From Leptospiraceae bacterium (GTDB lineage Bacteria; Spirochaetota; Leptospiria; Leptospirales; Leptospiraceae), in NCBI GenBank assembly GCA_015075105.1, contig JABTUZ010000001.1, positions 1,499,001 to 1,563,000 on the forward strand: 64,000 nucleotides of DNA. The letters run 5' to 3'. The notes beneath the pieces were generated by a model. It was not told the DNA's origin and did no database searches. It saw only the letters and a list, made by a program, of their open reading frames with translations. This document shows positions 21,961 to 51,323 of the stretch, piece by piece. A program made the position numbers and the translations under genes. Position 1 is the stretch's first letter. Every line of letters starts with the position of its first letter.

Positions 21961-23337
21961 TTGGAATTCAAAAGAACTCTATCTCTGTTTGATTCTGTTT
22001 CTTTAATATTCGGAACAGTGATTGGATCCGGAATTTTTTTTACATCAGGGTTTATACTTTCTAAGGTGGAAAACCCATATTTAGTATTATTTCTTTGGAT
22101 TCTGGGAGGCTTAGTTGCGATAGCCGGTGCACTCACCTATTCCTATCCTGCAATTTTGTTCCCAAAAGCAGGTGGAGACTATATATATTTAAAAGAAGCC
22201 TATAACCCTTTTGTTGGTTTTCTTAGCGGATGGATTTCTTTACTAATTACTTTTTCTGCTACAATTTCTGCCTTATCACTTGCTTTTTCAAAATATTTAA
22301 TGTATTTTTTTCCTGAAAATTTTTTAGAGTCTATTTCTTTTCAACTAAATTTTATAGGCTTGAATATTCAATTTGGGTCAACCCAAGTATTTGCTTTACT
22401 ATCTGTTTACACTCTAAGTGCTATTGGTTATTTCGGAATCCAAGCATCCTTTAGAATACAAAACCTTCTAACCGTTGTGAAATTTGGAGGACTTATACTT
22501 TTTATTTTTTTTGGATTTATTATAGGAAATAAAAATTATTCTTTTTTTTCTGATCCTTTTTTAAATACAGAAAAAATCTCTTTTGGAAATTTACTATTCG
22601 GACTCATCCCTATAACTTTTTCGTATTTTGGATGGAATATGGTAACCTATATTGCGGGTGAGATCAAAGACCCAAAGAAAAACATTCCTAGAGCAATCGT
22701 AATCGCATGCAGCTTAATTAGTCTATTTTATATTTTGATAAACTTTTTATTTTTAGTTTCTCTTCCTGTCCATGAAATGAAATCAAATGAAGGGATAGGG
22801 ATTGTCTCTTCAAAATATTTATTCGGTGATAAAATTCTGCCCCTTCTATCATTTTTGTTTCTCTGGATTATACTCAGCTCTCTATCTGGAATTATCATTG
22901 GTGGTTCCAGAATCTATTTTGCACTTGCAAATGACGGGTTATTTTTCCAAAGCCTTGCCAAGCTCCACCCAAAATACAATTCACCCTATATCGCAATTTT
23001 TTTTCAGGCGCTTTATGCGAGTATTTTTATTATCATCAAAGACTTAGAAAGTCTTGTTTACTTTGTCACGGCAGGGATTTTATTTTTATCTATTCTAACC
23101 GCAGCCTCAACCTTCCTGTTTATAAAAAGAAAATTGTATTCTGAATACAAAATCCCTTTCTATCCTTTTACTCCCTTATTTTTTATTGCAATAAACTCTG
23201 CAATCCTTGGAGCTATTGTCTATGAAAAACCTGTAGAAGCACTGTGGGGACTTGGAGTATTTTTACTTTCCATACCGGTTTACTTTTTATATACAAACTC
23301 TTTTATCAAAACCTTAAAACGGTTTTTGCATCATTAG
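21961..23337 (+). CDS. APC superfamily amino-acid permease
   Basis: A 458-residue membrane protein with about twelve hydrophobic segments. The first has the APC signature GTVIGSGIFFTSGF, the third contains GGDYIYLKEAYNPFVGFLSG, and the sixth contains FSYFGWNMVTYIAGEIKDPKKNIPRA. These are typical of the LAT/amino-acid-permease branch, which moves amino acids by proton symport or exchange. The start is TTG at 21961, one base after the stop of the DprE1-like gene, so it is in the same operon. Substrate unknown. Confidence 0.85.
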   Translation: MEFKRTLSLFDSVSLIFGTVIGSGIFFTSGFILSKVENPYLVLFLWILGGLVAIAGALTYSYPAILFPKAGGDYIYLKEAYNPFVGFLSGWISLLITFSATISALSLAFSKYLMYFFPENFLESISFQLNFIGLNIQFGSTQVFALLSVYTLSAIGYFGIQASFRIQNLLTVVKFGGLILFIFFGFIIGNKNYSFFSDPFLNTEKISFGNLLFGLIPITFSYFGWNMVTYIAGEIKDPKKNIPRAIVIACSLISLFYILINFLFLVSLPVHEMKSNEGIGIVSSKYLFGDKILPLLSFLFLWIILSSLSGIIIGGSRIYFALANDGLFFQSLAKLHPKYNSPYIAIFFQALYASIFIIIKDLESLVYFVTAGILFLSILTAASTFLFIKRKLYSEYKIPFYPFTPLFFIAINSAILGAIVYEKPVEALWGLGVFLLSIPVYFLYTNSFIKTLKRFLHH

Positions 23338-23437
23338 GAAATAGCAATTTCCGTGAGTTTTTTTTTCGTATATATTTCCAAGAAAGACTTTTTTAAAGGT
23401 ACACGCTACCTATAAAAAAGCAATCCAACAAGAAAAT

Positions 23438-39241: not shown

Positions 39242-39340
39242 TTTGCACGGTACAAATTTTTAAAATGAATTAAAATATATAGTTTCAGGAAAATGACTTT
39301 TTAAAAAATTGAGCAAGTGGCTTTGCTGTATTTATAAAAT

Positions 39341-39451
39341 GGCGTACCTGCAAAAAGTCGTTTTTTGAAAAAGCAATTGTTCAAAAAGCCAATAAAAGTG
39401 TCATTTTCTAGCGTTGTAAAAAGCCCTGAAAGGGGTTTTTGCAATAGCGTC
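39341..39451. mobile_element. MITE-like element, copy 1
   Basis: A 111-bp element present again at 50285-50395 with about two differences. Ends are imperfect inverted repeats: GGCGTACCTGCAAAAA at the left and the complement of GACGCTATTGCAAAAA at the right. It is flanked by the direct repeat ATAAAAT (39334-39340 and 39452-39458), consistent with a target-site duplication. An internal AAAAAGCCC/GGGGTTTTT hairpin lies near the right end. It contains no reading frame. The 375-bp gap between the methyltransferase and cytochrome genes otherwise shows nothing. Confidence 0.82.
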
Positions 39452-39616
39452 ATAAAATCCAAGTTAAATTTTTTGGAAATACTCTAATTTTTCATTCCTA
39501 TAAAAAAACCAAAGCAGTAAAAATTATTTCTTTTATAAATGATAAATTCCAAAAACATGGAATTAAGAATGGTCTATCAAAAAAAACCATTACAAAACTT
39601 ATAAAAAGGAAAAATT

Positions 39617-50264: not shown

Positions 50265-50284
50265 AAATACATCTCTTTATGAAT

Positions 50285-50395
50285 GGCGTACCTGCAAAAA
50301 GTCGTTTTTTGAAAAAGCAATTGTTCAAAAAGCCAATAAAAGTGCCATTTTCTAGCGTTGTAAAAAGCCCTGAAAGGGGTTTTTGCAGTAGCGTC
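50285..50395. mobile_element. MITE-like element, copy 2
   Basis: Same 111-bp element as at 39341-39451. It differs at the base after AAAAGTG (C rather than T) and in GCAGTAG rather than GCAATAG. Ends GGCGTACCTGCAAAAA and the complement of GACGCTACTGCAAAAA. It is flanked by ATGAAT at 50279-50284 and 50396-50401. The right boundary is at the stop codon of the patatin gene. Confidence 0.85.
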
Positions 50396-51323
50396 ATGAA
50401 TACAAATAGTCATAAATTTTAGTTTTAAGTTTCTCTGCATCTTCCTTCCCCAATTCATAAGTCGCTCTTGCTTTCTTTGCATTTGTATAATCAAAAGTAG
50501 TGATAGGTAACTTCCCGCCTTTAGGTTGAATCAAAAAAGTTTCACTTAATAGTTTCTTATCCTTATCTACAATAGTAACGTCATCATAATGAACTGCAAT
50601 CTTTTTAATTCCCGGTGAAAATTTTTCAAGAAGTAGATTGTTTGTAACCCCACCATCAATATAGTATTCATTCGAAATTCTTTGAAAAGATACGACAGGC
50701 GGAACCGAGGATGAATTCATAATAATTTGCTCAACCATCTCAGGGTATATAAAATCTTTTTCGGTGAATATCACTTCAGTTAAATTCCACCTGTGAACAA
50801 TTCTTTCTACACGGTTGCACGGGATTCCTCTTTCTTTATCTTTTTCATCAAGAATAATCGCTCTTGCAGTTTGTGGAATCAGTCTTGCCTTTCTGTAATA
50901 ATTTTGATATTTCTCCATACGCGGAAAAGCTCGAATCGAGAGGATGAAAATTTTCGTACCACTTTTTTTTATCTTGTCCAAATTCAAAGAATTACGAATT
51001 GCACGCCTATACATATTTTCATGCGGGAAGGGTCTTTTTCCTTTTAGCAAATTTAAAAAATACATATTTTTAGGATTTCTCTTTACTAACTCTTCAAAAT
51101 ATTCTAAAGCCTCCTCCTCTTCTTCGGAAAGTATTGTAAGTATAAACGCAGCCCCTGCGCTCACCCCACTCATCTCATGGAACTTCAGTCCCCATTGCCT
51201 TAGTGTGTAACCAACTCCAAGAGCGTACAATGCCTTACACCCTCCTCCCGCAAATGCAAGAGCAAGACGCGGTTGACCCAAAATTTTACGATAGCCTGTC
51301 TTTAAAAATTGTACCGGCTTCAT
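50394..51323 (-). CDS. Patatin-like phospholipase
   Basis: A 309-residue patatin: oxyanion loop FAGGGCKALYALG, nucleophile elbow GVSAG, and catalytic Asp in YIDGGVTNN. It would hydrolyse acyl esters of lipids. No membrane segment is predicted. The final codons are TAT TCA then TGA, where the stop is formed across the junction with the MITE-like element; without the element the same two codons are followed by TAA. The protein is thus unchanged by the insertion. It is 10 bp downstream of the YqgE gene. Confidence 0.87.
   Translation of the reverse strand: MKPVQFLKTGYRKILGQPRLALAFAGGGCKALYALGVGYTLRQWGLKFHEMSGVSAGAAFILTILSEEEEEALEYFEELVKRNPKNMYFLNLLKGKRPFPHENMYRRAIRNSLNLDKIKKSGTKIFILSIRAFPRMEKYQNYYRKARLIPQTARAIILDEKDKERGIPCNRVERIVHRWNLTEVIFTEKDFIYPEMVEQIIMNSSSVPPVVSFQRISNEYYIDGGVTNNLLLEKFSPGIKKIAVHYDDVTIVDKDKKLLSETFLIQPKGGKLPITTFDYTNAKKARATYELGKEDAEKLKTKIYDYLYS

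Follow-up and report, generated by a model that had tools for sequence, protein, structure and literature searches.

Two nearly identical copies of a short repeat lie in the window, the 64,000-nucleotide stretch of a Leptospiraceae bacterium genome analysed here. They probably belong to a non-autonomous, MITE-like element of about 113 bp with TG...CA tips, which is moved in trans into an oriented target with a duplication of about 4 bp. The sequence-only reading of this DNA had pointed to two 111-bp sequences with about two differences. Both copies are indeed 111 bp long within conservative limits, and exactly two of their 111 bases differ (T/C at position 61 and A/G at position 104). The imperfect inverted repeats claimed for the ends were present as (T)GGCGYACCTGC on the left and (T)GACGCTACTGC on the right, a feature of MITEs. 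In the family alignment, the right repeat, read inwards, is GACGCTACTGCAAAAA in most copies versus GACGCTATTGCAAAAA in copy 1. ATAAAAT was seen on both sides of copy 1, as had been stated, and copy 2 has ATGAAT on both sides. The coordinates are collected in Table 1.

Table 1. Element copies and their parts in the window (positions of the 64,000-nucleotide stretch)
Feature	Position	Strand	Basis
Element copy 1, 111-bp conservative limits	39341-39451	+	42 genome matches, E 1e-52; flank position analysis
Element copy 1, 113-bp limits, TGGCG...CGTCA	39340-39452	+	Position-wise flank analysis
Copy 1 left flank ATAAAAT, target copy	39334-39340	+	Sequence; equality test, 52 copies
Copy 1 right flank ATAAAAT	39452-39458	+	Sequence; flank equality and position analysis
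Copy 1 left terminal inverted repeat GGCGTACCTGCAAAAA	39341-39356	+	Sequence; conserved in family alignment
Copy 1 right terminal inverted repeat, inwards GACGCTATTGCAAAAA	39436-39451	-	Sequence; family alignment
Copy 1 first hairpin TTTTTTGAAAAAGCAATTGTTCAAAAAGCC	39360-39389	+	Fold of copy 1
Copy 1 conserved internal box GTGTCATTTTCTAGCG (family CGCCATTTACTAGCG)	39398-39413	+	Alignment; complementary to left junction TAAATGGCG
Copy 1 3′ hairpin, type AAAAAGCCCTGAAAGGGGTTTTT	39413-39445	+	RNA fold z -3.5; covariation
Element copy 2, equal to subfamily consensus	50285-50395	+	Sequence; genome search
Copy 2 left flank ATGAAT	50279-50284	+	Sequence; matched variant
Copy 2 right flank ATGAAT	50396-50401	+	Sequence; matched variant
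Decayed old family copy	23297-23413	-	Covariance model, 55 bits, E 3.9e-6; sequence

Copies, limits and target site

Copy 1 is intergenic, with a methyltransferase gene on one side and a cytochrome c gene on the other. Copy 2 is flanked by a PIG-L deacetylase gene and a patatin-like gene (50394-51323, minus strand, Pfam PF01734), and the TGA stop of the latter is formed by the right tip of the copy (TCA, 50394-50396). The decayed copy is either intergenic or overlaps the end of an ORF at 21961-23337.

The genome to which the window belongs comprises 3.42 Mb in four contigs and is 99.97% complete. A search of it with the 111-bp sequence gave 42 matches (best E 1e-52), including 28 near-full-length ones with 92-100% identity, in line with the expectation that more copies would be found. 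Three copies, window copy 2 among them, match the subfamily consensus exactly, so movement was probably recent. The wider family, gathered by genome scans with both ends and with a covariance model for which 21 diverse copies were used, comes to about 80 copies in this genome, approximately 30 near-identical and 50 decayed. The element is thus short (about 111-113 bp), dispersed in many copies and devoid of a transposase gene of its own, as MITEs are. Neither of the outcomes named in advance as contrary to transposition (only two copies with identical extended flanks, or empty sites lacking a single ATAAAAT) was encountered.

Among the 52 copies having both flanks, these were equal in 38. In 21 copies the left flank was not ATAAAT, and in 9 of these the right side matched it; shuffling gave an average of 0.64 and never more than 5, so that none of 20,000 shuffles reached the observed count. 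Since matched variants occur far above the level of the shuffles, the target-site duplication, another feature of MITEs, is real. The variants found on both sides of copies were ATGAAT, ATAAGT, ATAATT, ATATAT and ATGGAT.

The orientation of the hexamer relative to the element was the same in all copies. A pyrimidine stood two bases upstream of the target in 51 of 52 copies; for random ATAAAT sites in the window, the share was 47% (P 3.5e-16). On the right outer side, there was no base preference. Based on these flanks, the target is a fixed, oriented YN-ATAAAT rather than any free 6-7 bp. Furthermore, all 51 of 51 copies had A at position 1 of the right flank, and 49 of 51 had T at position 6 of the left flank, whereas positions 3-5 covaried on the two sides. 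Because the outer A and T are near-invariant and the inner positions covary, the element is probably TGGCG...CGTCA, 113 bp long, with a 4-bp duplication. The simplest reading would be a duplication that is usually TAAA within a target YN-A-TAAA-T, with the consensus copies fitting alternative limits equally well; under the TG...CA model, the duplication of copy 1 is probably TAAAA (5 bp). Consequently, the flanking duplication proposed earlier stands, and matched duplications are seen at many copies, but the limits of 111 bp and the expected duplication length of 6-7 bp probably give way to 113 bp and 4 bp (5 bp in copy 1) at a fixed, oriented target. It is worth noting that the fixed target, the interchangeable hairpin and the in-frame gene insertions described below go beyond that reading.

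A head-to-tail trio with a period of 117 was found at C2:953262-953618, with ATAAAT common to its members. The right tip together with the duplication (TCATAAAT) conforms to the target rule and would thereby account for the trio. Such tandem arrays, as well as the fixed oriented hexamer, would also be expected from a tyrosine-type site-specific recombination, in which ATAAAT is a 6-bp crossover common to a circle (GTC-ATAAAT-GGC) and the target, and in which the flanks match as identity is needed. The resemblance of the right tip TCA to the target YNA and the unequal outer bases of some young copies (L007, L009, L016) point the same way. However, of the two overlaps that a crossover leaves, one derives from the element and the other from the target, and double-sided variants, including the 7-base ATAAAAT, are unexpected unless each donor carried the variant. 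To our knowledge, there is no comparably small element of this type, and we consider this route rather unlikely.

Instead, an enzyme supplied in trans probably inserts the element at a target recognised from one side (A-TAAA-T, with a pyrimidine two positions before it) and duplicates about 4 bp of it. The mover is most likely a transposase and not a recombinase or a retro-mechanism; our initial guess would be a short-duplication DDE enzyme. It may act on a folded or asymmetric end of the element, and this would account for the fixed orientation. The combination of a strictly oriented target with a duplication is the unusual part of the element.

Hairpins and older family members

The hairpin before the right end occurs with at least three unrelated sequences, namely CCCAGCTCTTG..CAAGGGCTGGG, AAAACCC..GGTTTT and AAAAAGCCCTGAAAGGGGTTTTT. 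Based on the alignment pair count, 88.5% of its cells are paired and 8 of 9 pairs show two-sided changes, counts that represent non-independent events, since few hairpin types underlie the changes. The covariation score of the whole structure was reached by no shuffle. Judging by the alignment, the sequence of this hairpin has been replaced with the structure retained, and the covariation indicates that the folded strand is probably under constraint.

Pairing of the internal box with the left junction TAAATGGCG is suggested by 78.5% of paired cells, but only 2 of 9 pairs have changed on both sides, and it is best taken as a lead. It would be relevant to single-strand transposition by a Y1 enzyme of the IS200/IS605 or REP type, where the left ATAAAT would be the target and the right one a cleavage site belonging to the element, both being recognised by the box CGCCATTTA. 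A target context restricted to the left side, a hairpin near the end, the complementarity of the box to the left junction and the presence of a Y1 transposase gene in the genome agree with such a mechanism. Nevertheless, the right site should not copy the variants of the left site, yet it does; the box shows the few two-sided changes mentioned above, and the resident Y1 gene has other hairpins, CTCCAGCTTTAGCTGGAG. IS200/IS605 and REP elements are marked by no duplication, non-inverted ends and guide-paired hairpins, and this is not the pattern observed, the guide covariation being weak. We therefore regard a Y1 route as improbable.

The older members of the family have the same ends and the internal box CGCCATTTACTAGCG with other interiors; their consensus, which is approximate, is open in one frame. 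Three versions of only 44-45 bp (C2:618605, 1362975 and 734008) seem to have lost their interior by deletion between two TGYAAAAAG copies. Left ends without a nearby right end were found beside unrelated sequence at 151877-151912 of contig C1 (L064) and 133408-133424 of contig C2 (L149) and are possibly truncated copies. In one copy (L211, 1070652-1070770 of C2), the left third is replaced by an imperfect palindrome, GGGTAATAAGTAGTTTTAATTACCC. Contig C2 terminates within the 3′ hairpin of an element (L071, 1410329-1410425), and contig C1 at the tip of a diverged copy (L070, 2007056-2007153); the assembly seems to break at the elements.

In-frame insertions in genes

The element plus one duplication makes 117 bp, or 39 codons. 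The consensus of the young subfamily is stop-free in three of the six frames, and 1.5% of dinucleotide shuffles do equally well. The length was divisible by three in 9 of 9 intragenic copies compared with 11 of 19 other copies (Fisher P 0.029, for a small sample in which the tandem trio is non-independent). The young subfamily probably persists in genes because, with three stop-free frames and a multiple-of-three length, an insertion adds 39 residues without breaking the protein.

The clearest case is an LptF/LptG permease gene (C1:1815436-1817265, minus strand, PF03739, L158), which contains two in-frame copies, near its N- and C-terminus. This gene was matched in seven relatives from other genera, and all five with aligned frames are without the insert. 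At the N-terminal site, the relatives read KDFKVHTD or similar, and this genome reads KGF-[MTLLQKPLSGLFTTLENGTFIGFLNNCFFKKRLFAGTPFI]-IHTD. After removal of the element and one target copy, the sequence becomes KGFIIHTD, which aligns without a gap to the empty site of the relatives. The C-terminal insertion is in a variable tail, where the empty site is less sharp. An in-frame insertion absent from relatives, as in Rickettsia palindromic elements, is accordingly found at LptF/LptG.

Other copies are located in the N-terminal parts of genes for a LolA-like protein (L012), a FecR-domain lipoprotein (L020) and an unassigned lipoprotein (L003). A further copy (L014) lies in the N-terminal part of what by our reading is a TPR-like protein, and a short copy (L068) in a putative nucleotidyltransferase-like protein, for which a Pfam match is absent. 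Some in-frame copies fall in lipoprotein signal peptides; by inspection, the element-free N-termini would read as ordinary signal peptides, for example, MNKIFIGIVISALTILGIGNCKG.

These insertions bear on the view that the repeat is an immobile conserved regulatory RNA or a transcription terminator present at many places, for which the strong hairpins would speak. However, the element lies within a gene whose counterparts in relatives lack it, and target duplications are present. In addition, a terminator-like site was called at neither window copy, and the Rfam search gave only chance-level matches. Together with the matched variant flanks, the LptF/LptG insertions refute such a function as the whole explanation, and we give it almost no credence.

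The mobilising enzyme, known systems and distribution

The partner transposase is not in the window, in agreement with the sequence-only reading. Its further expectation of a full-length IS sharing the same ends has so far found no support in the own genome, where both ends were scanned and the Y1, DDE_Tnp_1, rve and RVT_1 genes were checked. No opposed end pairs at IS distance were found in the own genome, one-mismatch sites being considered among the matches listed (to about C1:745 kb). Of the mobile, MITE-like interpretation, the dispersal, the transposition and the true target duplications are upheld, but so far not the same-ended full-length IS. It is possible that the partner has diverged ends or has since been lost.

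Two resident candidates were rejected. The Y1 gene at C2:1282651 (L155, C2:1281151-1284492) is of the IS200 type and has its own, different palindromes CTCCAGCTTTAGCTGGAG repeated at its flanks; a second, partial Y1 match is located at C2:1040311. The DDE_Tnp_1 IS, present in four copies (L218-L221), has the unrelated ends TGTTCTGG... The flanks of its copies are unusually rich in G+C for a genome that is otherwise A+T-rich.

Members of the IS3 family have TG...CA tips and short target duplications. The same tips and a short duplication are seen in our element, and its duplication length and tips would suit an IS3-like DDE enzyme. The resident IS3-type elements have the ends TGAGGTGTACCC.. (TGAGGTGTACCCG..) and TGGTCTTGCCCC.., which show weak similarity to the element. 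A GTACCxG(C)AAAAAGT core is common with one of them, whereas the ends are not alignable at the right spacing, and the few IS3 copies examined show no ATAAAT preference. The best comparison of the left end with one resident IS3 end gave p 0.012 in 16 comparisons, which is not significant after correction.

A strictly oriented target is not usual for ordinary DDE transposases with near-symmetric ends. This, the weak IS3 similarity of the left end and the failure to find a same-ended partner in the own genome are points against a transposase. Target-primed reverse transcription yields oriented duplications, and the SINE-like copying of a structured RNA would accord with the oriented target, its context on the outer left side only and the structured sequence. 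We consider it very unlikely: a retroelement would require a reverse transcriptase, a search for which (RVT_1) gave no match in the 99.97% complete genome, and terminal inverted repeats are not needed for such a route. The mover might also be of a kind that recognises an oriented target from one side, together with a folded element end, and yet duplicates the target, fitting neither ordinary DDE, Y1 nor reverse-transcription mechanisms; it may also move other palindromic elements without a transposase, such as Rickettsia palindromic elements and CGTC repeats. This proposal seems to us unlikely.

The Rickettsia palindromic elements are among the closest known systems. They are about 105-150 bp long and palindromic, carry an ORF through, occur in frame in unrelated genes and have no known dedicated transposase (PMC2229807, PMC10969869, PMC3733652). 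Our element resembles them in being short and palindromic with open frames, in its fusions to unrelated genes and in the lack of a dedicated transposase. It differs from them in sequence, compared by description only, and in phylum, as well as in its fixed, oriented ATAAAT target with duplication and its swapped hairpins. ERIC, YPAL/RU-2 of Yersinia and the 107-bp Correia elements are non-autonomous, have terminal inverted repeats and form in-frame fusions, some building signal peptides (PMC2229807). Compared by description, our element is likewise an ORF-compatible MITE, set apart by its strictly oriented target.

The bcr1 repeats of the Bacillus cereus group are present in many dispersed copies with a TTTAT motif, and a mobility resembling site-specific recombination, by no known enzyme, has been proposed for them (PMC6542083). 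Our element is also a dispersed, many-copy repeat with a short AT-rich motif, differing in sequence and phylum; TTTAT resembles ATTTAT, its target on the reverse strand, but this serves as a lead only. The CGTC-tagged REPs (including dRS3, RPE-4 and RPE-6), reported in Spirochaetes among others, are 20-40 bp long, with a hairpin beside an unpaired CGTC tag at one stem end and no dedicated transposase (PMC3733652). In our case, the hairpin precedes CGTC inside a longer element with a target duplication.

No earlier description in Leptospiraceae was found in the literature searched, and we place the element as a new family within an already known kind of mobile DNA, set apart from the Rickettsia palindromic elements by description only. 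With its many copies of differing age, a strictly defined target and an unambiguous empty site, it offers a clean case for studying what moves transposase-less palindromic elements, and how they enter genes in frame and stay there. LptF/LptG is here a predicted lipopolysaccharide-export gene, and its insertions, like those in signal peptides, are directly checkable by proteomics.

The genus is represented by one genome. The covariance model gave no match passing E 0.01 in 29 other genomes of the order, and no match to the element was found in plasmids. Phage matches of 27 bp were rejected for low information. A viral-contig match (L168), which by our reading may lie inside a formamidopyrimidine-DNA-glycosylase-like gene, was rejected as a chance match of the gapped pattern, inverted ends and duplication being absent. 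The suggested search of related Leptospiraceae thus yielded almost nothing apart from one diverged copy in one other genus. It came from 84,980 species genomes searched with the gapped end pattern, in collections some of which may omit records of the own genome, and lies on a single contig, CANGZW010000047, of a Leptospiraceae MAG. This relative is 99 bp long, has its own interior and is flanked by ATTGAT on both sides, a matched variant in the same orientation.
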